The position numbers were made by a program, and so were the translations under genes. Below the pieces are notes generated by a model. That model ran no database searches and was not told the origin of the DNA. It saw only the letters and a program-made list of their open reading frames with translations. DNA of 64,000 nucleotides from assembly GCA_011033025.1 (NCBI GenBank), contig WFMF01000096.1:124001-188000 (forward strand). Direction: 5' to 3'. Shown here in pieces: positions 2,731-47,095 of the stretch (within the stretch, counting starts at the first letter, position 1; the number at the start of each line of letters is the position of its first letter). Source of the DNA: Beroe forskalii. Its lineage: Eukaryota > Ctenophora > Nuda > Beroida > Beroidae.

Positions 2731-4192
2731 AACCTATATCAAGGCTCTAGCTTTTCCTTCAGTCTTACAATAGTATATCTTTCCATTCAGGTCTGACATT
2801 TGACAACACTTGCTTGGATTGAATGCATATATTATAGATTCGCAAGTGCTCCTTTACCAAATAAATTTCTTTTCAGGTCTTTTGAACTCTTGTGATTTCG
2901 TGATGACTTTTCACTGCTTAGACTTGGTGTTATTACTTCCCTCTAAACTGTGTTGCTCAGGAATCCGGAGTCCTGGGTGGCCCAGCCTTGCAGTTGTAAG
3001 CTGTGAGGGGTACGTGGGCACTGGGCCGAAACTCCTCCGTTTCCCTTTGTCACCTGCTGATGGGACACCTACATTGCAGATGGCAGATGTAGGGTAACCG
3101 CTGATGATTCACAGTTTAGTCTCTTCCGCCTCTTATGTCAATCCTTGAATTAGAAAATCGATGTACAGTATTTTGTTATGTTTGTAGTATACCCATACAC
3201 CTCTATAGATAAGACATTGGATTCGGTTTAATTGCTCCTTCAGAAACTTTTTTTGATGTGCTCATCAAAATCCTTTATTTCAGTTCATATTCTTGCAGTA
3301 AAAGGATCATTGCTCTTTGTGTTTATTCAAACTTTGAATAACTGTATTAAAGGTGGTCTATTGGCTCAAATGATATTCACAAAACTTTGTTTAGTGCCTC
3401 AGTTGATAGATAATGTGTGTCGCTGTTTAATGTGTTTCCTTCAGTGTGAAAAGTATTACAATGAAAAGGCAAATAATGAAGTAACGAATTGGTTTAATGA
3501 GCTTGGCACATGGATCTGAAATATTTGTATGCCTGTGACTACTTGCCTGGATAAAACTGATTCAGTTTCCTCTGTAAAAGTAAAGCCAGAAAACTCTCTC
3601 ATTGCTCATCCATAGTCTTGGAAGTTTAATATGACATTAATTACTGTGCTTAATTCTTTATACATTGGCTGATTATTAGAATGTGCAGATTTAAGTCTCC
3701 TGATCTCAAATTCTCTTGTATCAGCTAATCATTTGAACTTCAGGTACCTGCATAGACATTGGTCAATCAATCAAATTGATAAACTCAAAACATGCAAAAG
3801 TGGTCTGAATGCAGGCTCTGCTTTGTTTTGTCATACTTGTAAAAGCACAAACATATTCACAATACTTATCCTTCAAATCCACTCCTGTTCAAGTACTTAT
3901 GCATGTTTAAAATTTGATACTTCATTTGATTGACCAATGTCTATTCAGGCCCATCATACTCCATTTTCACTTGTTCACCACTATGGAGGAATTTTATTTG
4001 ATGATACTATCATGACTGATTATTCATTGGTAGATAATATTCTTGTTTATGTTCTTATTCCAATCATAAAGAAAATTTTTCTCGTTCTTCTATGTTTACC
4101 CAGCTCATTGTTTATTCAGCTCATTTTTTTGAGGACATGTAATGAAGCAGTGACCATGTGATGTGAAGGTATAAAGAAGTTCACTATGAAAA
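2731..4192. other. Intergenic upstream of the adenylyl cyclase
   Basis: No gene or convincing upstream exon is seen. Several stop-bounded reading frames of 60-95 codons lack any family motif. A GC-richer patch at about 2960-3100 contains GGCCCAG ... CTGGGCC pairing and could be an old short repeat. A 5' UTR exon for the cyclase could be here but cannot be placed from sequence alone. Confidence 0.4.
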
Positions 4193-7100
4193 ATGCCCTA
4201 CTACCGACAGAAAATAATAGCAAACAAATCCAGCTACAAACCACTTAAATGTCAAGATGAAGTGAAACCCAGCTACACATGGCACCAAGGGTGTTGCATT
4301 GATGTGAGCTATCAAGCTAAAGAAGTTGAAAGACAATATCAATTATCAACAGTATCTGAAAGCAGATGGAATCTCCAGCTTGCATCTATCCTTCAGTCAA
4401 TGATATCATTACTTCTGGTAATCTTCTTTTCAGTAATGTATGGAACCACAGACCCAAAATCAGATGTGTGGAGTACACTTCTGTATGCAATGGCTGCCTC
4501 TTCAATAGCCAACTTAACATTGGTTGTTATATCTTTTACCATCGCCCATCACTCTATAATGGTAGTATCTTTATTTACATTGGTGCTGGGATTCTTGCCT
4601 TCATTCATAATCTTCCATTTTGGCAGGAACATTGTCACACATCCTGTTTACTTTGTTCTGATATGGAGCTGCCCAATACTCTCATCATACTATCTCTTGC
4701 ATCTACCATTAATAATATTGTTAGCATCTGGAAATTTATATTCCATTGGCTTAGCTTTATTTGCATATTTTGAGCTGGAGCAAAACAACAACAATAGCAC
4801 TGGTTTGGATTCTGTTTGGATATTTGTAGTTCTGTTTGGTGTAAATATCATTGGTGCTGTAGGAAAGTTCTATGACAGTTTGTCATCACGACAAGTCTTC
4901 TATAAAATTGGAAAAAGTTTACTTTATCAACAACAAGCATTAGATGAGACTCTCCTAAAGGAAGTATTAATAAGATCTATCATGCCAGAGGGTGTCTGTA
5001 ACCAGATATTATATAGTGGGAAGCTTCATGATGTTGTGCTATGCAAAGATCCTGAAAATAAGATGAGAGATCTTCCAATAAAGCTAATGGAACCTGTTTC
5101 TATTCTATTTGCTGACCTAGTTGGTTTTACAGCCATGAGTAGCACATTAGAGGCTGCAGAACTTGTAAATTTGCTAACAGACCTTTATGGTAGATTTGAT
5201 TGTGTTGCTGAAGCATACAGTTGTGAAAATATAAGCATCTTAGGAGACTGTTACTTTGCAGTCTCAGGTTGTCCTGAAGCAGATGAAAGACATGCTGATA
5301 ACTGCATGTATACTGGTATTGGACTTGTCAAAGCCACTCGTGAATTTTGTGCTGAAAGGAATAAGAGCATTGACATTAGGGTTGGGATTCACACAGGAAT
5401 TGTTCTGTGTGGTATTGTCGGAGGAACCAAGTTCAAATATGATGTCTGGTCAAGTGATGCAAAGATTGCTAATTACATGGAATCTGGTGGTGTGCCTGGT
5501 CGAGTTCATATATCAGAGCAAACAAAGAGCTACCTTAAAGATGAGTGGGAGTTTGAAGATGGCTTTGGTTCCAGACGTGAGCCAGAGCTCCAAGGAATTT
5601 TAACATTTTTATTGAAAAAGGAATTTCAGGATACCATAATAATTGAATCCAAGAAAAAAGATGTTGTTGATAGTGCTATTTATAGGAGTATATGTAAATC
5701 AAAGGCAAAGCAGACAAGTGAAAGTAGCATATCTGTGAAGAGTGAAGACTTGCATGGTCGATATTCTCTTTTGCATGTCCTCCATCCTATCTTGAATGTT
5801 CATGAATCAAAGAACCAACATAATGGACCATGTGAAAAATACAGAAATGTAAGTGCCAAAACCAGTAAAGTCTCAAAGACCATCGATGTACTTGCTGATG
5901 GCACTTCTAATACTAATAACTGTGAAAATGGAAATGGCATTAAGCATTCGTTAGTAGAGGGTAACGAAGATAACATCATGACTCACCAACGTGAAATGTT
6001 ACATGCTGCCTCTCATTCTTGGAACATTCACAAAACTTTTAGACAAGAAGGAGAAAAAATAGGGCGAAGTTTCTCAATTAATCCTTTTACAGCAAAGTTC
6101 CGTAGCAGCACATTTAACTCAGACTATTTCAGTCATGGTGGAAGCTGCTCATGCATTTTCTCAAAAGGATTTGCTGTGCTTTCGATGTTGACAGTATTTT
6201 TTATTGCTGTTCTAATCTTTGCATTGATGATCAAAAGTTATCATGAGGAAAATCAAACTGTTATGATTGTCAATGGTGTGGTAACTCTGCTGATCCTTAT
6301 TGCTCTAGTGATAACTGTGCAATGGGCAAAGGTTAAAAAGGTAGCCTCTTTATTGAACAAAGTACATTCTTTACCATATTTCGTGCTGCCACTTGCCCTT
6401 ACTCTGTTGTTAATGACTGGCACAATGACGGCAGTAGGTTGTTCTTGGAATAGCGAGAAAAATGTTTATGTTATTTTCTCCTTCACTTTACTGCTGTCCC
6501 ACTTCTTGATATATGAAAGATCATACTGGACAGTTCAAGCTTTGTTGCTTTCAACTACTGCTGGAGTTTCAATAAGCTATCTTGCAAATGGTGACTCTGA
6601 AACAAAGTTTGGCATTGCATCAATTTTATGCTCTTATCTAACAGTGTTTATTCTATCTTGGATTAAAAGTGTTAAAAGTGTTTTGAGATTTGGAACACTT
6701 TTGGAATGTAATACTGAACTAGCTGTAACTAAGGAAGAAGAGAATGTAACAACTCAGCTATTTAACACAATCATTCCTAAACATGTATCAGAGCAGTTCC
6801 TTACAGAACTCAATTACTCTCATTCCTATGACCATGTTGGAGTTATCTTTGCATCTGTCACAAATTTCTGGGATTTTTATGAAGAAAAATTCGAAGGTGG
6901 CATGGGATGTATCCGAGTATTGAACGAGATAGTACGAGACATTGATGACCTATTGACAAACATTGATAGCAGCTTGAAGAAAGCTGATCCTCGGTGGACA
7001 GCAATACAAAAAATCAAAACTATAGGTTCGTGTTATATGGCTGCATCTGGACTAGATCCTATTACAGAAGAGCAAACTAGACAAGGAAATCACCAGCACA

Positions 7101-7501
7101 TTATTCATCTTATGGAATTTTGTTTTCAAATCCTAAAAACTATCAAGGACTTTAACGACCACACATTTGGCACTGATTTCACAATTAAAATAGGTTTCAA
7201 TTATGGACCTGTAACTGATGGTATTATCGGTAAGAACAAAGTGCTATATGATATTTGGGGTGACACTGTCAATCTTTCAAGTCGAATGATGTCCACTGGT
7301 GTTGTTGGACGTATCCAAGTTCCTGCAGCTTGTGTGCCTTTCCTTATTGATCACTTCAAGATACCAAAACGTGGAAAAGTGCCAGTCAAAGGGAAGGGGG
7401 ATGTAATCACTCACTTCTGCATAGAGAAGAAGCCTGCTGAACAGATCAAAGCTAATTTAGCTGCAAGCGCAGCTAATAAACTCAATGCATCTGATGCATG
7501 A
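4193..7501 (+). CDS. ADCY9-like: Membrane adenylyl cyclase, AC9-like, intronless
   Basis: Class III transmembrane adenylyl cyclase of 1102 aa: converts ATP to cAMP at the cytosolic face of the plasma membrane, normally under G-protein control. An in-frame TGA at 4187-4189 makes the ATG at 4193 the first possible start. Order: hydrophobic domain 1 (about residues 63-240, several helices), catalytic C1 (about 290-480), a Ser/Lys-rich linker, hydrophobic domain 2 (about 655-845), C2 (about 885-1085). C1 keeps both metal aspartates, D308 in LFADLVGFT and D352 in ILGDCYF. C2 keeps K942 (KIKTIG), D1020 (YDIWGD) and N1027/R1031 (NLSSR), so the enzyme should be active. Closest resemblance from memory is AC9 (RVGIHTG.VLCGI, KVLYDIWGDTVN). 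The whole ORF has no intron, unlike the PRDM and kinesin genes downstream. No frameshift or stop is seen. Confidence 0.95.
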   Translation: MPYYRQKIIANKSSYKPLKCQDEVKPSYTWHQGCCIDVSYQAKEVERQYQLSTVSESRWNLQLASILQSMISLLLVIFFSVMYGTTDPKSDVWSTLLYAMAASSIANLTLVVISFTIAHHSIMVVSLFTLVLGFLPSFIIFHFGRNIVTHPVYFVLIWSCPILSSYYLLHLPLIILLASGNLYSIGLALFAYFELEQNNNNSTGLDSVWIFVVLFGVNIIGAVGKFYDSLSSRQVFYKIGKSLLYQQQALDETLLKEVLIRSIMPEGVCNQILYSGKLHDVVLCKDPENKMRDLPIKLMEPVSILFADLVGFTAMSSTLEAAELVNLLTDLYGRFDCVAEAYSCENISILGDCYFAVSGCPEADERHADNCMYTGIGLVKATREFCAERNKSIDIRVGIHTGIVLCGIVGGTKFKYDVWSSDAKIANYMESGGVPGRVHISEQTKSYLKDEWEFEDGFGSRREPELQGILTFLLKKEFQDTIIIESKKKDVVDSAIYRSICKSKAKQTSESSISVKSEDLHGRYSLLHVLHPILNVHESKNQHNGPCEKYRNVSAKTSKVSKTIDVLADGTSNTNNCENGNGIKHSLVEGNEDNIMTHQREMLHAASHSWNIHKTFRQEGEKIGRSFSINPFTAKFRSSTFNSDYFSHGGSCSCIFSKGFAVLSMLTVFFIAVLIFALMIKSYHEENQTVMIVNGVVTLLILIALVITVQWAKVKKVASLLNKVHSLPYFVLPLALTLLLMTGTMTAVGCSWNSEKNVYVIFSFTLLLSHFLIYERSYWTVQALLLSTTAGVSISYLANGDSETKFGIASILCSYLTVFILSWIKSVKSVLRFGTLLECNTELAVTKEEENVTTQLFNTIIPKHVSEQFLTELNYSHSYDHVGVIFASVTNFWDFYEEKFEGGMGCIRVLNEIVRDIDDLLTNIDSSLKKADPRWTAIQKIKTIGSCYMAASGLDPITEEQTRQGNHQHIIHLMEFCFQILKTIKDFNDHTFGTDFTIKIGFNYGPVTDGIIGKNKVLYDIWGDTVNLSSRMMSTGVVGRIQVPAACVPFLIDHFKIPKRGKVPVKGKGDVITHFCIEKKPAEQIKANLAASAANKLNASDA

Positions 7502-19254: not shown

Positions 19255-19845
19255 TTGGAGGGGAAATTCGAAACTTTAATTTCTGCGAAATATAAGCTTC
19301 TCACGCCCCCAACGGTAAACCAATATTGCCGACAATATTCTCAAAACCTTTACTCATCATAAGCAACTCCATAGCGAAGGAATTTTGAAAAAATTCGAAA
19401 ATCTATTTTTAGACAAAGGGCGTGGCCTCCCACGCCCCTTAGGGTGACCCAATAATTCGGACAAAATTCTCAAAACTTTTATTCATCATAAGCAACTTTG
19501 ATGGCGAAGGAATTTTGAAAAATTCGAAAGTTTAATTTTTGCGAAAAAGGGCGTGGCCCACCACGCCCTCAGGGTGACCGAATAATTCGGACAAATTCTC
19601 AAAATTTCTATTCGTCATAAGCAACTCAATGGAGAAAGAATTTTGAAAAAATTCGAAAGTTTAATTTTTGCGAAAAAGGGCGTGGCCTCCCACGCCCCTC
19701 AGGGTGACCCAATAATTCGACAAAATTCTCAAAATTTTTATTCATCATAAGCAACTCAATGGCGAAAGAATTTTTGAAAAATTCGAAAGTTTAATTTTTG
19801 CGAAAAAAGGGCGTGGCCCCCCACGCCCCTCAGGGTGGCCGAAAA
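19255..19845. repeat. Tandem repeat, unit about 120-130 bp
   Basis: Four to five consecutive units share GACAAAATTCTCAAAA, CATCATAAGCAACT, GAAGGAATTTTGAAAA and GGGCGTGGCC..CCACGCCC. Each unit ends in this short GGGCGTGG/CCACGCCC hairpin followed by CAGGGTGACC. It abuts the left end of the 6-kb palindrome. Confidence 0.8.
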
Positions 19846-20544
19846 AATTTTTCATTATTTTTCTGTTTTATTACTAAGGTTTTGCAACACGACTAAAACA
19901 TAATTTCGTTGCCTACCTGAAATTGCTAACGCCTGCCAACCACATATATATATCAGGGCGCTGGCAAGCGCCCGCAGCCACGGAAAATTCCCTCCGACCG
20001 AGGGCATCTGCCCGAAGGGTAGATGCCCTCGGCCCGAAGGGCCGAGGGTAAGCAATAGGTTAGAAGTCCCGGCCCGAAGGGCCGGGACTGCTGGCCAGAC
20101 ACTCCTAACAAGCCAGTAATACCAGCATGAAGTGCTAAAAGTGGTAGCGGAACCGTTTTTCAAGTATTGAAAATACGTTTGCCAGCGCCTATTATATAAA
20201 AATACAGTAAATCGCGAAAATCGCGATTTTCGAGTCGCATTTTTAACATGTTAATTCAATCTGTTGGTCATGAAAATTTGTACAGGCGTAGTCCATAACA
20301 TGAATAACAAACCCTGTAAATTTCATGAAAATCGACCGCGTCGTTTTCTCACAATAAATTATCAAAAAAACGCTATTTTATCAAAAATTAGAACATGGAC
20401 TACGACGACCCGACCCGACCCGACCCGACTCGATGATAAAAATTGTGTTTGAGTGTTCTCGAGAACCATAAAAGATAGAATCATAATCTAAACGGCATAT
20501 GAAACTTCAGAATGATGTGCGTGCATTAGGCCATATAATATTTG

Positions 20545-21490
20545 AAATTGACGATTCCTTAATTGGTTAATTGGCCAATTAAAGTGATTATCGCGCATAA
20601 CTCCAAAAGTAAAAATGTTAGCGTCTCAATTCTAACGGCATCATTAATTTAAATCAAAATTACAATTTGTACGTCTAATTTAAGTACCAGTTGCCTGCCG
20701 CTTAATTAGTTAATTGACCAATTAAGGTAATTATCGCCTATAACTCAAAAAGTAAGAATGATAGCGACTTAATTCCAACGACATCACTAACTAAAGCTAA
20801 AATTACGATTTGTACGTCTTATGTAAGCACCAGTTGCCCGCCGCTTAATTAGTTAATTGACCAATTAAGGTAATTATCGCCTATAACTCAAAAAGTAAGA
20901 ATGATAGCGACTTAATCCCAACGACATCACTAACTAAAGCCAAAATTACGATTTGTACGTCTTATTTAAGTTGCCTGCCGCTTAATTAGTTAATTGGCCA
21001 ATTAAAGTAATTATCGCCTATAACTGAAAAAGTAAGAATGATAGCGACTTAATTTCTACGGCATCAGTAACTTACGTCGAAATTACGATTTATTCGTTTA
21101 ATCTAAGTACCGGTTGCCCGTCGCTTAATTAGTTAATTGACCAATTAAAGTAATTATCGCCTATAACTCAAAAAGTAAGAATGATAGCGACTTTATTTCT
21201 ACGGCACGAGTAACTTACGCCGAAATTACGATTTATTCGTTTAATCTAAGTACCGGTTGCCCGCCGCTTAATTAGTTAATTGGCCAATTAAAGTAATTAT
21301 CGCAAATAACTCAAAAAGTAAAAATGTTAGCGTCTCAATTTCAACGGCATCATCAATTTAAGCCAAAACTACGAATAATTCGTTTAGTCGAAGTATCGGT
21401 TGCTAACCCCTTAATTAGTTAATTGACCAATTAAAGTCATTATCGCCTATAACTCAAAAAGTCAAAATGATAGCGACGTAATTCTCACGT
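20545..21490. repeat. Left arm tandem array, unit about 140 bp
   Basis: About seven units are recognised by CTTAATTAGTTAATTG-CCAATTAA, ATTATCGCCTATAACTCAAA and AGTAAGAATGATAGCGAC. The same family appears in reverse orientation at 24310-25410. The AATTAGTTAATTGGCCAATT core is itself partly palindromic. Confidence 0.85.
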
Positions 21491-21867
21491 TTAGAGCATG
21501 AAAGTTCTTGGCAGTAGCAATTATCACAACTTGAACTGATAGTCGTAAGTTTTATGCCAAAAAAGAGTGATATGGATAGCCAAAAACAATTGAAAATTGT
21601 TTGGGTTACGCAGCCACTCCAGTACCTAAAATTATACGATTAAAACTATTGATATGAGTTTAAATCGCAGCCTGTCCGTGGCGGTGTGCTTTGGTTACCA
21701 AGAAATATCTTGGTGACGCATATGATGAGAGCTTATTACACAGTACACCCGTTCTACTTCATTCTTGTCGAATATATTCACAATCGCGATGTTGTCACTC
21801 CAACCATAATAAGTGCGACTACGTGTTTCCTTACGGCATTATTAAAGTAGTGGCTTACCTTCCAAAA

Positions 21868-23185
21868 GGAAAAATCCCCTCGGTTACACCATTCCAAATC
21901 CCCTCACTTTCAATCAAAATTTTTCATGTTTTCTAAGGCTCCCCTAAGTTTCAAAGATAATAGGGCCCGCTTGCTTTTCTCACAAAAGCACTAACAATTA
22001 ACAAGTGCAAGGCAATATTTAATTCAGAATCCCTACTGTCCCTTTCTAGGCGCCGCAGGCGAAATTTTTGAAGGTTTTACATCTGAGACTGTGTGTAAGA
22101 TCAATTAAGTAACATAATTTGATCACAATTCACTGTTCACAACAGCTCGCCGCAGGCGAAAATTTTCAAGGTTTTACCTCTAAGACTCGGTATGGGATAA
22201 ATTCAGTAAAATGATTTGATCACAACAGCCCGCCGCAGGCGAAAATTTTCAAGGTTTTTATCACATGAATCTGCCTCTAAGATCAATTTGGTAATGAATA
22301 ATTTGATTACAACAGCCCGCTGCAGGCGAATTTTTTTAAAGTTTCACATTTCTGGGTGTGTCTAAGACTGAAGGTCAAAATTTTCAAGGTTTTACCTCTG
22401 AGACTTCGTATGAGATCAATTCAGTAAAATGATTTGATCACAACAGCCCGCCGCAGGCGAAAATTTTCAAGGTTTTTATCACATGAATCTGCCTCTAACA
22501 TCAATTTGGTAATGAATAATTTGTTTACAACAGCCGGCTGCAGGCGAATTTTTTTAAAGTTTCACATTTCTGGGTGTGTCTGCAGGTGAAAATTTACAAG
22601 GTTTCACATCCGAAGCTGAATTTTGAATCATGAAAGTGACAGAACACTCTCACTTCCTCCAATTCGATGGGAAAAGGCTCTTATTGAAAAGATTGTAGGG
22701 TGAGAGAACACCCTCACTTCTTTGAAATTGATTGGAAAAGGCCCTCGTGCAAATGATAAAAGTGAGGGCTCAAGTGAAATAACACTCACTCTTTACAAGT
22801 TGATGCTAAATGGCTCTCATTCAAATGATAAAAGTGAGGGCTCAAGTGAGGAAACAGTAAACACCCACTCTTTACAAGTTGATACTGAAAGGCTCTCATT
22901 AAAACTTTCAAATGATGAAAGTGAGGGCCAAAGTGAGATAACACTCACTCTTTACAAGTTGATACTAAAAGGCTCTCATTGAAATCATTAAAGTGAGGGC
23001 CCACGTGAGAAAACACTCTCACTTCATCGAAATTGATAGGAAAATGCTCTCATATCTCTTAAATTGATGGAATTAAGGCCTTCATTTTGGGCTCTGGTTC
23101 ACGCACAAGTAAGTTTGTCAAAAATCAAAATCCCCTCACTTTTGATAAAAATCCCCTCGGTTACAGTGTAACCCGTGCAACCCAA
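21868..23185. repeat. One-sided 1.3-kb insertion made of tandem repeats
   Basis: This block interrupts left-arm sequence that is continuous in the right arm (ACCTTCC at 21860 resumes with GGAAGGTAAG near 23190). It contains two tandem families: about 22040-22610 with GCCCGCCGCAGGCGAAAATT, and about 22640-23060 with AAAGTGAGGGCTCAAGTGA plus CACTCTTTACAAGTTGAT (unit about 70-85 bp). Both edges carry AATCCCCTCGGTTACA and AAATCCCCTCACTTT motifs. The open frame at 22722-22982 is a by-product of the repeat. Confidence 0.65.
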
Positions 23186-23451
23186 CTTTGGAAGGTAAGA
23201 GTAGTGGACTCGTTTTTTACATTGCAATCGCCCTCAAAGTCGCTAAAAGATGACGATTTCAATCATCAAATAGGGATGAACGTAGGATTAATTTCAGCAT
23301 GCGTTCAAGCCTTTTCACGTGAAAACACCTTCAAAGAATGCTAGAAATTATAGGTACTTTCTTTATTTGCGTCCACTCACGCTTAATTAGTTAATTGAAG
23401 GAGATTCAAACGGCAGTGAGTTGATGAATGTTGTTCTGCTTATTTCTTAGT

Positions 23452-23565
23452 AACCAAAGCACACCGCCACGGACAGGCTGCGATTTAAACTCATATCAAT
23501 AAGTTTTAATCGTAATTTTGGTATTGAGTGGTTGCAATCTAAATTTTTCAATTGCTTTTGGCTAT

Positions 23566-23600
<35 letters not shown>

Positions 23601-23725
23601 ATAGCCAAAACAATTGAAAATTGTGTGGGTTTCGCAGCCACTTCAGTAATAAAAATTATACGATTAAAAATATTGATATGATTTTAATCGCAGCCCGTCC
23701 GTGGCGGTGTGCTTTGTTACTAAGA
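23452..23725. repeat. Palindrome centre with (TA)n loop
   Basis: GTAACCAAAGCACACCGCCA (from 23452) is matched by the complementary TGGCGGTGTGCTTTGTTAC near 23702-23721. The two arms meet at an uninterrupted TA tract. It is the symmetry centre of the 6-kb element. Related sequence recurs at about 21540-21720 and 24110-24310. Confidence 0.8.
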
Positions 23726-24309
23726 AATGAGCAGAACTTAACATTCAAGACATCTCACTGCCGTTTGAATCATACCTCTTTTAAGTAACTAATGTAGCGT
23801 AAGTTAACGTAAAGCAAATACCTATGATTTTTAGCATTCATGAAGTGTGTTTTCACGTGAAAGGGCTTCAAAGCATGCTAAAATTAATCGTAATGTCATC
23901 CTTATTTGATGATTTAAATCGCCAATTGGCAAAGCGACTTTTGAGGGTCATGAAAATTAAAAACATGAGTCCACCACTTTGATGATGCATGATTTTAAGC
24001 TTTGTAGGAAACACGCCGTCACCACTTATTATGGTTGGTAGGTTGGTGACAGCATCACGATTGTGAAGATGTTCGACAAAAAATGAAGTGAAAGTTTTCA
24101 CTGAGTGTACAATTCAATAAGTTCACATCATATGCGTGACCAAGGTATTTTTTCGTAACCAAAGCACACCGCCACGGATTAAAAAATCATATCAATATTT
24201 TTAATCGTATAATTTTTGGTACTGAAGTGGTTGCGAAACCCACAATAATTTTCAGCAATTGTTTTTGGCTATCCATATCACTCTTTTTGGCATAAAACTT
24301 ACGCAATCA

Positions 24310-25410
24310 GTTCAAGCACGATGCCGTTGGAATTAAGCCGCTATCATTCTTACTTTTTTAGTTATAGGCGATAATAACCTTAATTGGCCAATTAACTAAT
24401 TAAGCGGTAGGCAACTGGTACTTAAATTAAACGTGCATCTGGTAATTTTGAGTCTTGTGACTGATGCCGTTGGAATTAAGTCGCTATCATTTTTACTTTT
24501 TGAGTTATAGGCGATAATTACTTTAATTGGCCAATTACTTAATTAGGCGGTTGGCAACCGGTGATTGAATTAAACGAATAAATCGTACTTTTGACGTAAG
24601 TTACTGATGCCGTTGGATTTAAATCGCTATCATTCTTACTTTTTGAGTTATAGGCGATAATTACTTTAATTGGACAATCAACTAATTAAGCGGTGGGCAA
24701 CTGGTACTTAAATTAAACGTGCATCTGGTAATTTTGACTCAAGTGACTGATGCCGTTGGAATTAAGTCGCTATCATTTTTACTTATTGAGTTATAGGCGA
24801 TAATTACTTTAATTGGCCAATTAACTAATTAAGCGGCGGGCAACTGGTACTTAAATTAAACGTGCATCTCGTAGTTTAGGCTTTAGTTACTGATGCCGTT
24901 AGAATTAAGTCGCTATCATTCTTACTTTTTGAGATATAAGAGATAATTACTTTAATTGGCCAATTAACTAATTAAGCGGTGGGCAACTGGTACTTAAATT
25001 AAACGTGCATCTGGTAATTTTGACTCTATAGTGACTGATGCCGTTGGAATTAAGACGCTATCATTCTTACTTTTTGAGATATAAGCGATAATTACTTTAA
25101 TTGGTCAATTAACTAATTAAGCGGTTGGCAACCGGTACGTAAATAATACGCATAAATCGTTATTTTGGTTCAAGTTAATGATGCCGTTGGAATTAAGTCG
25201 TTATCATATTTACTTTTCGAGTTATACACGATAATTACTTTAATTGACCAATTATCTCATTAGGCGGTTGGCAGTCGGTACTTGAAATGAACGAATAAAT
25301 CGTAATTTTTGCTTAGGTTAATGATACCGTTGGAATTAAGTCGCTATCATATTTACTTTCTGAGTTATAAGCGATAATTACTTTAATTGGCCAATTATCC
25401 AATTAAGGAT
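24310..25410. repeat. Right arm tandem array (inverted copy)
   Basis: About eight units of GATGCCGTTGGAATTAAGTC, CTATCATTCTTACTTTTTGA, TAGGCGATAATTACTTTAAT and GGCCAATTAACTAATTAAGC, each about 140 bp. They are the reverse complement of the left array but differ in copy number. Confidence 0.85.
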
Positions 25411-26006
25411 TTGGCGAAAAATATTTTCGTGCCCTAATTACGTACTCATTCTAAAGTTTCATATGCCGTTTAGATTACGGTTCTATCTTTTATGGTTCTC
25501 CCGTGAAGTGTTTTCCCGTTTTGTCGTAGTAGTCGTCGTCGTCGTCGGAGGAGTCGTACCGTCCATAAATACTTGTTTTGGCAAACTGATTTTGATAATT
25601 TATTGTGCAGGCATTTTCATGAAATTTTCAGGGATTATTCTTCATACAATGGACTACAACTGCAAATTTTCATGTCCAACAAGAGCTCGTTAACATGTCG
25701 CAAATACGACTCGAAAAATCGCGATTTCGCAAATCACTGTATTTTTTATATATAGTGGGCGCTGGCAACTCATTTTTCAAAACATGAAAATTGGTTCCCG
25801 CTACGACATTCAACACTAATTCGTGCTGGTACTCCCTAAGCTTTTTGCCGTGTCTGGCCAGCAGTCCCATTTCCGGGCCGGTACTGTTGCCTCAGCCCTT
25901 CGGGCTGATCGGTCGAGATGCCCTCGAGCCCTGTCGAGGGCCGGCCCATCGGCAGATGCCCTCGTCCAGAGACCCCATCCCGTGGCTGCGAGCGCTTGCC
26001 AGCGCC

Positions 26007-26008
<2 letters not shown>

Positions 26009-26044
<36 letters not shown>
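26009..26044. repeat. (TA)n microsatellite
   Basis: An uninterrupted TA run forms the right boundary of the 6-kb palindrome. Both foldback elements in this cluster have TA-rich outer boundaries. Confidence 0.9.
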
Positions 26045-26047
<3 letters not shown>

Positions 26048-26291
26048 TCAAAATTCAACAGGACTCAAATGAAACGACATTTAACTGATCTGGAACTTCC
26101 GATAAGTTACACATCTTCTGGGGATCATATAGCTAAAATACAAAAACAAATTAGTATCACAGAATACAATATCAATTTAGAAAAGTCAAGTGGTGACGTA
26201 CGGTCAGAGCACAGATTAGGTAATTTTTACAATATCATGAATCATTACATCTAAAAGAAAATATCCCAGTGACAGAACACAGTTAATATAT
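26045..26291. other. Spacer between the two large foldback elements
   Basis: About 250 bp separate the two elements. A + strand frame (to 26254) reads through but starts in the repeat and TA tract, has no recognised motif, and is not called as a gene. Confidence 0.4.
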
Positions 26292-28440: not shown

Positions 28441-29344
28441 AAGGTAGACATGTCACATATCTTTTTCCTTCCTACCCTCCCTTTATGCAAATATGCGATC
28501 GAATTAAGTGCTGCAGCTCTCTTCCGCATCCAGTTCTGATCTAATGAAGCGATAATTGCGTGTTTGCTTAATAGCTCGTAATGAGGTTAGAAGAAGGTCT
28601 AATTTCATACTTGCCCTGTCTCTCAATTCTTGTGTGTAAATGTAAGTGTTACTGTTATGTCATCTTCTCAGTAAATATGTAGCACATCATGATACACGCT
28701 AGGAACCGACCGGATCTCAGATCCGGTCCCAAATCAGGCGTTTTTGGGCGATCCGATCCCGGTCCGGTTTGAGGGTCAAAATTTCACTGGATCCGGATCA
28801 CAGGGTTACTGTATCGGAGGTTTCACCCAAAATATGAATATCCTAAATTATGAAAATTCAATACTTCAATACTCTGATGCGTACAATAACAAGTTGATCA
28901 AGTTACCCTGTCTCAGTTTTCATTGAATCCCTTTCAGTGCTGTAAAGATATATACATTGCTAGGTATATTGAGGCTCATTAGTCCCTTGACCATTAGTCG
29001 TTTGACTGCCTGACAGCCAGTAACATCCAATTAGACATTAACTTGTGATTTTCTGTGGTTCATATTTCCAGTACCAACCAATCAATCCAATAAAGCACTA
29101 ACTGCCTATCTAAATTCTAAGCATCGAACTACGGACTCTGTAACTTACAATAGTATGTACATATAAAAAACTCTATGAGATGGATTATTAAAGTATTAAC
29201 GCAGCATATCGAAACAAAATGAGGTATAGGTGTTCTGAGTAAGCAAAGTTGCTTATTCGATTTGATACGGTTAAGGGTAAAATCTTGCCAAAAAATCCAG
29301 ATCCGGTCCGATCCGTTCCGGTAAACCAGTTTTTCTATAGATCC

Positions 29345-30628
29345 GATTTGATTCGATTCAATTCGACGACTCGACTCGACGATTCGATTCGTCGATTCGA
29401 TTCATGTCGATTCGATTCGTCGATTCGTCGATCGATTTGTTGATTCGATTTGATCTGATTCGTCGATTCGATTCGTCGATTCGATTCGTCGATTCGATTT
29501 TGTTGATTCGATTCGTCGATTCGATTCGTCGATTCGATTCATCGATATTCGTTGATTCGATTCGTCGATTCGATTCGTCGATTCGATTTGTCGATTCGAT
29601 TCGTCGATTCGATCAAATCGTCAATCAAATTCGACGAATCGATTGACGAATCGATTGACGAATCGATTCGACGAATGGATTCGTCGAATCGAATCGACGA
29701 ATCGAATCAAATCGAATCGACGAATCGAATCGACGAATCGAATCAACAAATCGAATCGTCAAATCGAATCAACAAATCGAATCGACGAATCGAATCGACG
29801 AATCGAATCGACGAATCGAATCGACGAATCGAATCGACGAATCGAATCGACGAATCGAATCGACGAATCGAATCGACGAATTGAATCGACGAATCGAATC
29901 GACGAATCGAATCGACGAATCGAATCGACGAATCGAATCGACGAATCGAATCGACGAATCGAATCGACAATCGAATCGACGAATCGAATCGACGAATCGA
30001 ATCGACGAATCGAATCGACGAATCGAATCGACGAATCGAATCGACGAATCGAATCGACGAATCGAATCGACGAATCGAATCGATGCGAATCGAATCGACG
30101 AATCGAATCGACGAATCGAATCGACGAATCGAATGTCGAAATCGAATCGACGAATCGAATGACGAATCGAATCGACGAATCGAATCGACGAATGAATCGA
30201 CGAATCGAATCGACGAATCGAATTGACGAATCGAATTGACGAATCGAATCGACGAATCGAATCGACGAATGAATCGACGAATCGAATCGACGAATCGAAT
30301 CACGAATCGAATCGACGAATCGAATCGACGAATCGAATCGACGAATCGAATCGACGAATCGAATCGACGAATCGAATCGACGAATCGAATCGACGAATCG
30401 AATCGACGAATCGAATCGACGAATCGAATCGACGAATCGAATCGACGAATCGAATAATCGAATCGACGAATCGAATCGACGAATCGAATCGACGAATTGA
30501 ATCGACGAATCGAATCGACGAATTGAATCGACGAATCGACGAATCGAATCGACAAATCGAATAATCGAATCGACGAATCGAATGGACGAATCGAATCGAC
30601 AAATCAGATCGACGAATCGAATCGATTA
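29345..30628. repeat. 13-bp satellite with head-to-head inversion
   Basis: The unit is CGATTCGATTCGT. The orientation flips at about 29615-29645, after which the complementary unit CGAATCGAATCGA runs to 30628. Because 13 is not a multiple of 3, the array is open in several frames on both strands and reads as a 13-residue super-repeat (DESNRRIESTNRI on +, IRRFDSSIRFVDS on -). I treat these frames as artefacts of the repeat and not genes. Confidence 0.95.
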
Positions 30629-32634: not shown

Positions 32635-34947
32635 TTATTCGGTAACCTTGAGCACACCCTTCTGGGAACGATTTGTAAAGTTGTTGTTCCGAGTGCAGAT
32701 GTACACGAACTCCCCTCCCTTCTTGAATTTGAGGACATGTCCGAAGTAACTGGCGGGGGCATTGTTGAGTTGTTGTTGCATGGCAGCCTTGTTGCTTGTA
32801 ACACGGTCATTGGCAGTACACATGTCACCAGAAGCGGACTGGTAACCACAGTAGTATCCTGAGGTGGCGTACCCAATAGCCAGGTCCATGGCACTGGTTT
32901 GAGGGTGGTTGACACTTTCCACACTCTCCCAGAAGGTTGTCTGCTCGTACGGCATCGGGTAGTTGAGATCGCTCTTCAGCATCTGCAGGAAGTTGTGTCT
33001 GTCCGTACCGGCTGTGCCTTCCCCGGCGTCCCCTGTCTGTCCATCTCCACCGTCGTTACCATTGTTGTGCGTGTTGGAGCCTGTCCACTGGATGTGCAAC
33101 ATGTCTGAGGCAGACATGGTCAGGTTGTTGGGAATAAAGTCGTACTCCACCGCCGGGAAAGTCTGCACAATGTTGCCTCTCTTGCCACGCACGTTCAGGT
33201 TGTGTAGGATCTTACCTGCCATGCCACTGGTTCGCGGGAGAACCTTGAACATGTGGGTCCTGTCTTGGAACGTTCTTCCGTACTGGTTGGTATTCATAGC
33301 CAGTCTGAGGGGTTTAGACTCTCCTCCTGACACGTCAATGGTGGGATCCTGCTCCACTGGAGATATGACTCCCTGGTCGGGGAAATTGTTGTGTCGTCGG
33401 TCAGTTCCGTAGTTATCAAACTCGTCCGTGGTTATGTTGTACCTGAGTCTGAGAGTGCAGCGTTTAGCAGCCCCACTGGGAAAGTAAGGCATGTCAACTT
33501 CAACTCGAGATGCTTCTCCATCAGTATCCGCTGAGTTACCCAGATGATTAACTCTGGTGAAGGGTGCCTTCTCACACTTAGGTTCAGGGGCCTGCACTAC
33601 ACAGTACTTGTCATTTGGCTTATCACTTCTGAGAGGCATCCAGGCAATCTTATTCCTCTGATCCGTAGCCTTGTAAGTGTTACACTGAGCTTCATTGTTA
33701 GCAGCAGATATAATCTCAAGGAAACCGTAAAATTCTACCCAGGTACCTCCTTTTGCACCGAAGCATCGCTTATTGGCTGATATAGCATGATTATCAAATG
33801 TTTTGGTATTTCCATCCGGTTTGGTCTTCAGATAACACCGCTTTGTGTCCGTATTCATTGTCACTGCTTTGCACTGCTCACTTTCACTGCACTTCTCGAT
33901 ACATTCGTCAAAGGATTCCACGATCATGCTGGTAAAATCCGCCCCACCATAGTTGACATTTTCGAAAATGCACCCTCCCTCTAGTTCACAAGATTCTTTG
34001 GTTATGGCACGTCCGTAGGTCCTCGAGCTCTGCTCAGGCATGACACACCGGAACTTTGGGACCCGGTTCTCAGTCCCCTGAGACACTCTGTCACAGTCAC
34101 TCATGTTTCCAGTGAGGTACGCCACGTCTATCCAAGGGGTTGTTTGGTACTTGTCCATGAATTCGCTTTGTTGGGTTGGTTGCCAGTACGGGTAATGATC
34201 CCTCTCTTCGGGGCACTCATACCCGTTCCTATTTCCGTTGTTGTTCTGTCTGGTCCTCTCACTGCCGGTGTACCCCAAACTTCCCGCGTTGGTCTGCTGG
34301 TCAGCTCTGTAGACTCCCCAGTTTCTAGAGCGGTACCTGCACATATCGTACCACCACAACGTCTCATGAAGGCCCCTGTTCGTCTGTACATTTGCATAGT
34401 TACCATTCATCCGATTGTTATACTGCTGGTTCTTGGTGTTCTGATTGTCATTCAGAAACTCATTCTGGTTGGGTTGGTTGTAGTTCTGAGTGTTGGTGGT
34501 AGTTCCGTCCCTCATGTAGAAGTTCCTCTCCCTAACATCATTAGCTCCGTTACCCTGTCCTGTTGGGTAGTCTGCATCAGTGCCTTGATTCTGACACATC
34601 ATCTGTATCACAATGTTGCAGTTAGTCTTGTGAGAGGATCCTTGGTTTCCACATCCGTGCTGGTTCGTCCATTCTATCACCATCTTACTCGCCTCACCTT
34701 CAGTGGGCCCACTGGCGTAGTACTGCATAGCATATTGCTTGGTAGCGTCATTTCCAGCCGCTGTGGACGTCCTGTCCCCTGTGTTGTACCCTCCACGGGC
34801 GTTGTTCTGTGTGTCAAAGAGACGGTTTCCGTTATTCCGAGTTGCTGACTGCTCGTTGACTCGGTTGTTAGAACCTCTTGGATTACTGAGGTAGACATCC
34901 GCTAGAATAGTCCCAAACAGGCAGCCCAGTAGGACCAGAAACTTCAT
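32635..34947 (-). CDS. DD3-3-like: DD3-3-like secreted protein with PAN/apple-like segment
   Basis: 770-aa secreted protein of the DD3-3 family (named after a Dictyostelium protein and found in many invertebrates; molecular function not established). Residues 1-16 form a signal peptide ending ILA before DVYLSNPRGSNNR, the family's N-terminal signature. RLFDTQNNARGG (about 43), WTNQHGCGNQ (about 93) and GLHETLWWYDMCRYRSRN (about 194) follow. Residues about 155-193 are Asn/Gln-rich. Residues about 325-393 look like a PAN/apple adhesion module (CIFENV ... DECIEKCSESEQCKAV ... RCYLKT ... RCF). The C-terminus has the conserved YICTRNNNFTNRSQKG. Several NxS/T sites fit secretion. One intronless ORF; start chosen as the ATG opening the signal peptide. 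Family assignment is from remembered motifs. Confidence 0.87.
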   Translation of the reverse strand: MKFLVLLGCLFGTILADVYLSNPRGSNNRVNEQSATRNNGNRLFDTQNNARGGYNTGDRTSTAAGNDATKQYAMQYYASGPTEGEASKMVIEWTNQHGCGNQGSSHKTNCNIVIQMMCQNQGTDADYPTGQGNGANDVRERNFYMRDGTTTNTQNYNQPNQNEFLNDNQNTKNQQYNNRMNGNYANVQTNRGLHETLWWYDMCRYRSRNWGVYRADQQTNAGSLGYTGSERTRQNNNGNRNGYECPEERDHYPYWQPTQQSEFMDKYQTTPWIDVAYLTGNMSDCDRVSQGTENRVPKFRCVMPEQSSRTYGRAITKESCELEGGCIFENVNYGGADFTSMIVESFDECIEKCSESEQCKAVTMNTDTKRCYLKTKPDGNTKTFDNHAISANKRCFGAKGGTWVEFYGFLEIISAANNEAQCNTYKATDQRNKIAWMPLRSDKPNDKYCVVQAPEPKCEKAPFTRVNHLGNSADTDGEASRVEVDMPYFPSGAAKRCTLRLRYNITTDEFDNYGTDRRHNNFPDQGVISPVEQDPTIDVSGGESKPLRLAMNTNQYGRTFQDRTHMFKVLPRTSGMAGKILHNLNVRGKRGNIVQTFPAVEYDFIPNNLTMSASDMLHIQWTGSNTHNNGNDGGDGQTGDAGEGTAGTDRHNFLQMLKSDLNYPMPYEQTTFWESVESVNHPQTSAMDLAIGYATSGYYCGYQSASGDMCTANDRVTSNKAAMQQQLNNAPASYFGHVLKFKKGGEFVYICTRNNNFTNRSQKGVLKVTE

Positions 34948-34949
34948 AC

Positions 34950-34990
34950 TTAGAGCTAAGAGAAAAGAACGATAGTTATATCTTTATATG
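34950..34990 (-). promoter_or_regulatory. TATA-like box and acceptor-like tract before the DD3-3-like gene
   Basis: Reading the minus strand, CATATAAAG (TATA-like, 34982-34988) is followed by CGTTCTTTTCTCTTAG, then CTCTAAGT and the ATG. If the TATA box is used, the 5' UTR would be very short. The polypyrimidine-AG stretch could instead be the acceptor of a 5'-UTR intron or a trans-splice site. Sequence alone does not decide. Confidence 0.35.
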
Positions 34991-41218: not shown

Positions 41219-41990
41219 GTGTGCAAGTGTTTGGTCGAGTGTACACGGTGCAACGCACTGCTAGTGTTTGGTCGAGTGTACACGGTGCAACGCACAACAA
41301 GTGTTTGGTCGAGTGTACACGGTGCAACGCACTGCTAGTGTTTGATCGAGTGTACACGGTGCAACGCACTGCAAGTGTTTGGTCGAGTGTACACGGTGCA
41401 ACGCACTGCAAGTGTATAGTGTACACGGTGCAACGCACTGCTAGTGTTTGGTCGAGTGTACACGGTGCAACGCACTGCTAGTGTTTGGTCGAGTGTACAC
41501 GGTGCAACGCACTGCGAGTGCTTGGTCGAGTGTACACGGTGCAACGCAATGCAAGTGTTTGGTCGAGTGTACACGGTGCAACGCACTGCGAGTGCTTGGT
41601 CGAGTGTACACGGTGCAACGCACTGCAAGTGTATAGTTTACACGGTGCAACGCACTGCTAGTGTTTGGTCTAGTGTACACGGTGCAACGCACTGCTAGTG
41701 TTTGGTCGAGTGTACACGGTGCAACGCTCTGCTAGTGTTTGGTCGAGTGTACACGGTGCAACGCACAACAAGTGTTCGGTCGAATGTACACGGTGCAACG
41801 CACTGCAAGTGTATAGTGTACACGGTGCAACGCACTGCTAGTGTTTGGTCGAGTGTACACGGTGCAACGCACTGCTAGTGTTTGGTCGAGTGTACGCGGT
41901 GCAGCGCACTGCTAGTGTTTGGTCGAGTGTACACGGTGCAACGCACTGCTAGTGTACAGTGTACACGGTGCAACGCACTGCAAGTGTGTG
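41219..41990. repeat. 37-bp minisatellite, about 20 copies
   Basis: The unit is GTGTACACGGTGCAACGCAC + TGCTAGTGTTTGGTCGA, with the palindrome GTGTACAC in every copy. Shorter variant units (AGTGTATAGTGTACAC junction) recur at about 41412, 41632, 41812 and 41952. Variants such as CACAACAAG and CTGCGAGTGCTTGG appear more than once, which points to duplication of multi-unit blocks. Open frames across it are repeat-derived. Confidence 0.95.
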
Positions 41991-46218: not shown

Positions 46219-47095
46219 ATTGTCGTTTTTACATTTCATGCAATTATTGTAAATTGAAGTTTTTCAACAATTTGAATTATCGAGCGATAGATGTTTTTAA
46301 ACGACTACCGTGCGATTGTTGTTTTTAACGATTAATATCGTGCGATTAATGTCGCTTTTAACGATTATCGTGCGAAATGCGATTGTCGTTTCAACGATTA
46401 TCGTGTACGATTGTCGTTTTAACGATTAATTTTAAACGACTATCGTGCGATTATCGTTTAGTTTTACTTTTAACGATTATCGCTTTGAATGATTATCGCT
46501 TTGAACGATCATCGTTTTTAACGATCATCGGTTTTAACGATTATCGTTCTTAACGATTATCGTTTTTAACGATTATCGTTTTTACCGATTATCGTTTTAA
46601 CGATTATCGTTTTTACCGATTATCGTTTTTACCGATTATCGTTTTTAACGATTATCGTTTTTAACGATTATCGTTTTTAACGATTATCGTTTTTAACGAT
46701 TATCGTTTTTAACGATTATCGTTTTTAACGATTATCGTTTTTAACGATTATCGTTTTTAACGATTATCGTTTTTAACGATTATCGTTCTTAACGATTATC
46801 GTTTTTAACGATTATCGTTTTTAACGATTATCGTTTTTAACGATTATCGTTTTTAACGATTATCGTTTTTAACGATTATCGTTTTTAACGATTATCGTTT
46901 TTAACGATTATTGTTTTTAACGATTATCGTTTTTAACGATTATCGTTTTTAACGATTATCATTTTTAACGATTATCGTTCTTAACGATTATCGTTTTTAA
47001 CGATTATCGTTTTTAACGATTATCGTTTTAACGATCATCTGTTTCAACGATTATCGTTTTAATGATTATCGTAAGATTGTCGATTTTAACGATAA
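46219..47095. repeat. 16-bp satellite TTTTTAACGATTATCG
   Basis: About 45-50 units, divergent at both edges and nearly perfect from about 46540 to 47020. Each unit contains CGATTATCG, which is the terminal sequence of the adjoining foldback element. Confidence 0.93.

Follow-up and report, generated by a model that had tools for sequence, protein, structure and literature searches.

Two satellite-carrying, transposon-like units meeting in a TA tract as the probable origin of a 6-kb inverted structure

Layout of the locus

The DNA analysed here (the window, 64,000 nucleotides) corresponds to positions 124001-188000 of contig C1091, and the genome searched comprises 216 Mb in 1134 contigs; C-numbers denote contigs of this genome and L-numbers individual loci that were examined. 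Positions 19953 to 26010 of the window hold a 6058-base inverted structure, which an earlier note, made from the sequence alone, had described as a near-complete palindrome and possibly a new class of foldback element. Each half was found to be a complete unit (A and B) with its own two ends. The units belong to a dispersed, non-coding, non-autonomous, satellite-carrying repeat that resembles a transposon, is found at TA tracts and is marked by an end with an unusual hairpin structure. We conclude, with a probability of about 0.88, that the 'palindrome' consists of two independent insertions of this non-autonomous DNA transposon, tail to tail in one TA microsatellite, and that unit A additionally received a different insert resembling a miniature inverted-repeat transposable element (MITE).

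The inverted layout itself is confirmed. Self-BLAST aligned 20084-21484 with 25868-24473 in inverted orientation over 1434 columns at 79.8% identity, and further inverted matches connected the arrays and blocks of the two halves. Tandem arrays with a 143-bp period are present on both sides, as are the GC-rich hairpin termini, the GTGGCGGTGTGCTTTG block and the TA centre that the earlier note had listed; Tandem Repeats Finder (TRF) placed (TA)15 at 23569-23598 and (AT)17.5 at 26010-26044. To call the palindrome near-complete, however, was an overstatement, because the overall identity of the arms is only 80%. It is also lopsided, with 1346 extra bp on the left, because unit A holds a nested insert. 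The site of this insert was uninterrupted in all five other copies examined (L002, L003, L004, L005 and L008), L008 differing by one base in the 8-bp word that is duplicated in unit A. The insert is MITE-like and has internal repeats of its own; pieces related to it occur on C14 and, close to a Helitron gene, in L073.

No transposase was seen, in agreement with the earlier note: 21 open reading frames of at least 50 amino acids (aa) overlap the region, and a Pfam scan of the two longest frames between stops (131 and 144 aa) gave no match at E<=1. Scans of the window for Rfam families and tRNA genes likewise gave no hits.

Reading inward from its left end, a unit consists of the hairpin GGGCGCT-GGCA-AGCGCCC, a box CGCAGCCAC, a GC-rich domain bounded on its inner side by an inverted GCCAGCGCC, then a linker, the 143-bp array and a right block that ends in TTTTGGCTATCC. 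Inward from the right, typical copies show GGATAGCCAAAA, a hairpin ACAATT-GAA-AATTGT (identified by eye) and the box CGCAGCCAC at 33-35 nt; the right-end hairpin is degenerate in the outer end of unit A. The features of the locus are given in Table 1.

Table 1. Coordinates of the two units and associated features in the window (TSD, target-site duplication).
Feature	Position	Strand	Basis or remark
Unit A, from hairpin end to right end, interrupted by the nested insert	19954..23567	+	~2.27 kb without insert; 97.9% identical to C339
Unit A, GC-rich CCC-GAA-GGG hairpin domain with inverted GCCAGCGCC copy at its inner edge	19954..20190	+	
Unit A, terminal hairpin GGGCGCT-GGCA-AGCGCCC	19956..19973	+	Fold and covariation
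Subterminal box CGCAGCCAC adjoining the terminal hairpin	19973..19981	+	Offset 19 in 18/18
Unit A, unique linker	20191..20557	+	
Unit A, 143-bp tandem array, 6.6 units	20558..21489	+	TRF
Unit A, right block: two ~138-bp inverted arms (21570-21707, 23441-23571), spacer with nested insert	21570..23571	+	
Nested 1346-bp insert, 13-bp inverted ends CTTACCTTCCAAA, 8-bp TSD AGTAGTGG at 21846-21853 and 23200-23207	21854..23199	.	Not part of the unit
TA tract common to the right ends of units A and B	23568..23598	.	TRF
Unit B, other subfamily, opposite orientation	23599..26009	-	Genome search, copy comparison and tree
Unit B, right block, inverted arms 23594-23728 and 24147-24278	23594..24278	-	Self-BLAST
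Unit B, 143-bp tandem array, 7.6 units	24320..25407	-	TRF
Unit B, hairpin domain and terminal hairpin	25757..26009	-	Weaker fold than in unit A (z -1.7)
TA tract at the left end of unit B	26010..26044	.	TRF

Origin of the two arms

A genome search with the whole 6058 bases gave 273 matches with 40 of 1029 candidates scored, so that counts from this search are lower bounds. Among these, only the locus itself was matched over its full length. The next-best matches covered query positions 46-1901 and, at many loci, also 3248-3630, which corresponds to a single unit lacking the insert; the remaining strong matches in the list were likewise insert-free units of ~2.3 kb, or fragments of units. By the earlier note, a single copy with no insertion polymorphism would have pointed to an assembly or local-duplication artefact. 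The half-unit escapes this objection, being present in many copies, but the whole palindrome was seen as a unit nowhere else.

For comparison, 18 two-ended copies were assembled, units A and B included. Unit A was 97.9% identical to the copy on C339 and 93-96% identical to five more, and its identity to unit B was 80.2%. In a FastTree tree of the 18 copies, in which C25 and C159:528821 sit on long branches, unit B grouped with C25, C35, C83 and C14 (support 1.0), apart from A. Partial relatives outside this set came nearer to B (C402, 91%; C954, 89%). Unit A is thus far closer to a copy on a different contig (97.9%) than to its partner across the TA tract (80%), so the two arms were in all probability inserted independently. 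Similar arrangements were found elsewhere: two further tail-to-tail pairs (C2 and C235), a direct pair (C234) and a head-to-head pair (C716), indicating that units can insert next to each other in a common TA tract in any relative orientation.

The proposal of the earlier note, a single 6-kb foldback element that mobilises or replicates via hairpin or cruciform DNA, draws on inverted arms and a TA centre that are real, and a sister family described below is a true foldback of ~2 kb with the same type of hairpin end on both sides. The arms are only 80% alike, however, although A is nearly identical to a stand-alone copy, and their right ends meet across the TA tract as independent ends, as they do at C2 and C235. 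In a foldback element of the FB or Tetris type the arms should move as one; here they come from different subfamilies, and A occurs alone. The phylogeny of the arms and the single-unit copies (40 of 1029 candidates scored) lead us to reject one element, and we consider this proposal very improbable. What remains of the suggestion of mobility is a dispersed, multicopy, non-coding repeat with fixed ends, associated with TA tracts and with a left hairpin under strong pairing constraint; the genome searches yielded many copies, no consistent target-site duplication (TSD) of 8-11 bp and no autonomous relative.

Inverted arms around a near-central TA tract are a familiar shape of fold-back assembly errors. 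Such an artefact, or a recent local inverted duplication, would leave near-identical arms, and for this reason we reject both at 80% identity, as very improbable too. The arrays are also of unequal length in the two arms, and only one arm carries the 1346-bp insert with its own TSD.

The preferred reading is therefore that of two insertions, and the palindrome would be a by-product of TA-tract targeting, since two units landed tail to tail in one TA microsatellite. The arrays appear to travel with the units. With a tolerant motif count, between 3 and 9 array cores were found in 17 of the 18 two-ended copies and none in C25. The alignment of unit A with C339 is 96% identical from end to end, whereas the array monomers of unit A are only ~82-88% alike, indicating that arrays of satellite length were dispersed as cargo.

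Ends, hairpins and target sites

The exact left end TATCAGGGCGCTGGCAAGCGC occurs 226 times in the genome and the right-end motif CAATTGTTTTTGGCTATCC 412 times, while neither pattern occurs in it when read backwards. The pairing of exact ends was analysed on 100 listed places per motif. For at least 27 of the 56 listed left ends on contigs up to C235 an outer right end lies 0.9-4.5 kb away (25 of them at 1.66-2.73 kb), and for the remaining 29 no outer right end with the exact motif was listed. The typical length of a unit is ~1.7-2.7 kb. Many units contain the right motif two times, once in each inverted arm of their right block, and among the listed places up to C235 at least 34 right blocks of 372-730 bp have both arms exact. 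Behind some left ends, different arrays and right parts follow (C122). A stand-alone right block at C159:449202 turned out to be truncated. We infer that the repeat spreads by transposition.

Allowing one mismatch, the box CGCAGCCAC is present at the left end of all 18 two-ended copies (offset 19) and at the right end of 16, inverted between the ends; unit A is one of the two copies that lack it on the right.

A general pattern for such ends is ATCAGGG[C/G]GCTGGCAAGC[G/C]CC. In a related end, the C..G of the terminal hairpin is replaced by G..C. A base other than C at this position was found in 410 genome matches, and 99 of the 100 listed had the compensating C (the remaining one was T..G); a C paired with a base other than G occurred three times in the genome. 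The copies are related, so neither these counts nor those of the GAA hairpins below represent independent events. As judged from sequence, the data support a left end that forms a hairpin under strong pairing constraint. The adjoining domain is rich in small hairpins. Loops of GAA are known to give very stable DNA mini-hairpins. In 48 end domains taken from the two families, 203 hairpins with three-base loops and stems of at least 5 bp were counted; the loop was GAA in 136 of them, with 42 different arms. In 20 mononucleotide shuffles the mean was 0.05 hairpins with a GAA loop, out of a mean total of 17. The CCC-GAA-GGG hairpins lie on one strand. The folding energy was far below that of shuffles for unit A (z -7.0) and L002 (z -10.7).

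Ends of the CAGGGGGCTGGCAAGCC type also define the sister family. In L089 (C163) and L090 (C192) such an end stands on both sides of ~2.0 kb, and no frame between stops in either locus exceeds 182 aa. The inverted ends of L089 are 500-600 bp long and carry the same kind of GAA hairpins. Among 100 listed ends, at least eight convergent pairs lie within 6 kb; six of them span 1.88-2.08 kb, and the other two 3.0 kb (C225) and 5.2 kb. A genuine foldback of the GAA-hairpin type thus exists elsewhere in the genome, distinct from the 6-kb structure. The TA tract inside the sister element hosts copies of the present family (C25 and C171). The 5.2-kb pair, on C178, was considered as an autonomous partner and was not taken as one element, because its middle 2.8 kb holds sister fragments and a frame that by eye resembles a long interspersed nuclear element (LINE) reverse transcriptase, and contains no full transposase.

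AT directly precedes the left end in 48 of 48 cases, sister ends included (TAT 40, AAT 7, CAT 1). The flanks are mostly TA-rich, and several of them belong to other repeats. The C25 copy in the sister-family element allowed filled and empty sites to be compared: the joined flanks fitted two empty copies best without any duplication (score 144 versus 142 and 141 for the next-best lengths; 133 with a TA duplication), and 43 of 50 empty places carried the allele predicted by no duplication, three were one TA shorter and four differed otherwise. Further empty sites, in the flanking repeat (L078-L088) and in the C331/C292 flanks, were microsatellite-like, and the best-fitting number of removed bases was 0 for C155, 1 for C25, 3 for C83 and 4 for C331. 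As for the TA duplication of Tc1/mariner MITEs, both flanks are TA-rich and the empty sites microsatellite-like. A target duplication of 0-2 bp is most likely, and one of 8-11 bp is unlikely.

Several observations weigh against the picture drawn so far. By plain pairwise identity the nearest of the 17 other copies to unit B is C458, an A-like copy (81%), so the clade of B depends on the tree. Most transposons with terminal inverted repeats (TIRs) carry such a repeat at both ends, whereas the two ends of the present unit have none in common. The C25 empty site favours the absence of a TSD by a small margin only, and flank matches of 8-9 bp were found in just two of the 16 copies outside the window (C83 and C155), in AT-rich linkers of another repeat. 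Exact matches between the flanks of a pair averaged 4.44 with the window pair, compared with 3.21 after shuffling, a value reached by a fraction of 0.011 of 2000 shuffles; without the window pair they averaged 3.13 compared with 2.79 (reached by 0.07), a weak excess. Folding was not significant for the unit B domain (z -1.7), for two sister-family ends (about -1.4) or for the right end of unit A (-0.7). Finally, no autonomous partner was found, and none of the Helitron, MULE (Mutator-like element) or DDE matches compared with the ends (eight Helitron loci, and 17 matches on contigs up to C237 against the listed ends) was tied to them.

The neighbourhood of the two units contains other dispersed repeats. 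At 19302-19947 lies the end of an array-bearing repeat with a 129-bp unit containing GGGCGTGG..CCACGCCC; its relative beside the C155 copy gave at least 114 matches (best 40 of 583 candidates). The TA-rich stretch at the end of repeats of this type is a recurrent landing site for the present units. On the other side, 26045-26264 is half of another repeat with at least 43 matches (best 40 of 127 candidates), which at C159:449002 forms a near-perfect palindrome centred on (TA)n.

Elsewhere in the window, an uninterrupted frame of 1103 aa with two adenylate/guanylate cyclase stretches occupies 4190-7501 (+), and one of 782 aa with a PAN-domain match occupies 32635-34983 (-); a C2H2 zinc-finger gene is also present, and together with the cyclase gene it suggests an animal genome. 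A 26-bp (ATCGAATCGACGA)n array at 29340-30625 has stop-free frames of 227 aa (+) and 288 aa (-), which are probably not a gene. Regular arrays are also found at 46468-47072 (38 copies of the 16-bp unit TTTTAACGATTATCGT) and at 41222-41987 (37-bp units with GTGTACAC).

Candidate enzymes and known systems

The enzyme, its class and the role of the hairpins are inferred here. An enzyme supplied in trans may recognise each end by the terminal hairpin and the inverted CGCAGCCAC box and would insert the element between A and T in TA-rich DNA. Copies within TA tracts would then offer the adjoining tracts as landing sites, so that end-to-end stacks accumulate, and the 143-bp array might be carried as a passenger or as additional binding sites. 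Profile searches of the genome gave 20 matches to Helitron_like_N, 46 to MULE, 22 to DDE_1 and 5 to DDE_3. A cut-and-paste transposase of the TIR type seems slightly likelier than a Helitron-like enzyme.

That the units are non-autonomous TIR transposons aiming at TA, either of the MULE kind (SaTar, MuTAnT) or of the Tc1/mariner-pogo kind, has in our view just under even odds. Targeting of TA tracts with end-to-end stacking is known from SaTars (PMC5907723; this and the other papers are cited for parts of their text), the sister family has TIRs, the right block is itself an inverted repeat, and MULE and DDE domains are present in the genome. On the other hand, 14 of the 16 copies outside the window have no 8-11-bp TSD, no TIR is common to both ends, and 17 Helitron, DDE and MULE matches, those on contigs up to C237, are all more than 6 kb from any hairpin end among the 100 listed per pattern (the nearest is 9.1 kb away, and four of the 17 are on contigs without a listed end).

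Rolling-circle transposition of non-autonomous, Helitron-like units, whose hairpin end would be the 3' end, is possible but rather doubtful. A hairpin followed by CTGA and T would fit the hairpin and CTRR of canonical Helitrons, which insert between A and T without a TSD, in agreement with the C25 empty site; the present hairpin abuts CTGA instead of lying ~11 bp away from it. Tandem arrays are typical of HINEs (PMC4067079, PMC7492417), and Helitron_like_N domains are found in frames of up to 2871 aa. The opposite end, which would be the 5' end, begins with (T)GGATAGCC and not with TC, however, and the 12-15-bp subterminal inverted repeats and TT insertion of Helentrons are lacking. A hairpin end on both sides, as in the sister family, is awkward for a rolling-circle mechanism, and in none of eight Helitron loci (L069-L076, of the 20 matches) was either end found within ~1.5 kb of the match. 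Two of these loci, L075 (C1099:13833) and L076 (C432:166483), contain open frames of 2871 and 2814 aa, respectively, in which the Helitron-type match is free of stops, and are possibly large, intact Helitron genes.

A third proposal is more speculative still, and we regard it as unlikely: the elements with a hairpin domain, on one end in the present unit and on both in the sister foldback, could form a transposon group of their own, in which the ends would be recognised in folded, single-stranded form. The covarying terminal hairpin and, next to it on the 5' strand, the series of mini-hairpins with GAA triloops would be the recognised structures, and an undescribed enzyme would place the elements in TA tracts, between A and T, with no duplication of the target.

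On the preferred reading, the supposed giant palindromic element is replaced by a simple rule, in which landing in TA tracts leads to end-to-end elements and hence to false palindromes and false tandem duplications. Such stacking has been described for plants in the work cited, and the genome in which it is seen here is animal-like. As an end structure under strong constraint, the GAA-hairpin domain should help to identify the enzyme that moves these elements.

The open-access literature, searched without the host name, contained no description of the present family that we could find, and nothing relevant on foldback or MITE elements of sponges or on invertebrate SaTars. Among systems already described, the SaTars of guayule and rice are arranged in stacks without nesting, in which (TA)n or other microsatellites link one element to the next (PMC5907723). 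MuTAnT of Medicago has TA microsatellites as its target, and its TSDs measure 9 nt where the target is not a perfect repeat (PMC4486113). Both resemble the present units in being non-autonomous and flanked by (TA)n, in microsatellite-joined stacks, and in inverted modules with foldback structure. They are plant MULEs of 0.2-1.7 kb with TIRs and TSDs of 9-10 bp outside microsatellites, and SaTars are never nested. The present units differ in their dissimilar ends, 143-bp array, GAA-hairpin domain and lack of a consistent 8-11-bp TSD; two copies (C25, C171) are nested in the TA tract of a sister element, and unit A contains an unrelated insert.

With HINE, DINE-1 and Cg_HINE elements the units share a central satellite-like array between conserved flanks, a terminal palindrome (here the covarying hairpin), a subterminal inverted box, high copy number and the absence of coding sequence (PMC4067079, PMC7492417). 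The array units of oyster HINEs are mostly 140-180 bp long (PMC7492417). Unlike HINEs, the present units insert between A and T in TA-rich DNA and not at TT, their only subterminal box is the 9-bp CGCAGCCAC at 19 and 33-35 nt, their right end is an inverted repeat of ~140 bp, and no Rep-Hel partner was linked to them in the eight Helitron loci compared. Helitron2 likewise has hairpins at both ends, with compensatory changes, and an inverted box directly beside one hairpin (PMC3627910); its 5' box (ATIR) lies 0-2 bp from the end within the 5' hairpin, whereas the present right-hand box lies 33-35 nt inside, beyond the hairpin. Tetris of Drosophila virilis, an array-bearing foldback transposon, is also modular and non-autonomous, with tandem repeats linked to inverted ends and end segments common to a smaller relative (PMC4079207). 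Its TIRs carry arrays on both sides, whereas the present unit combines a single array with two unlike ends.

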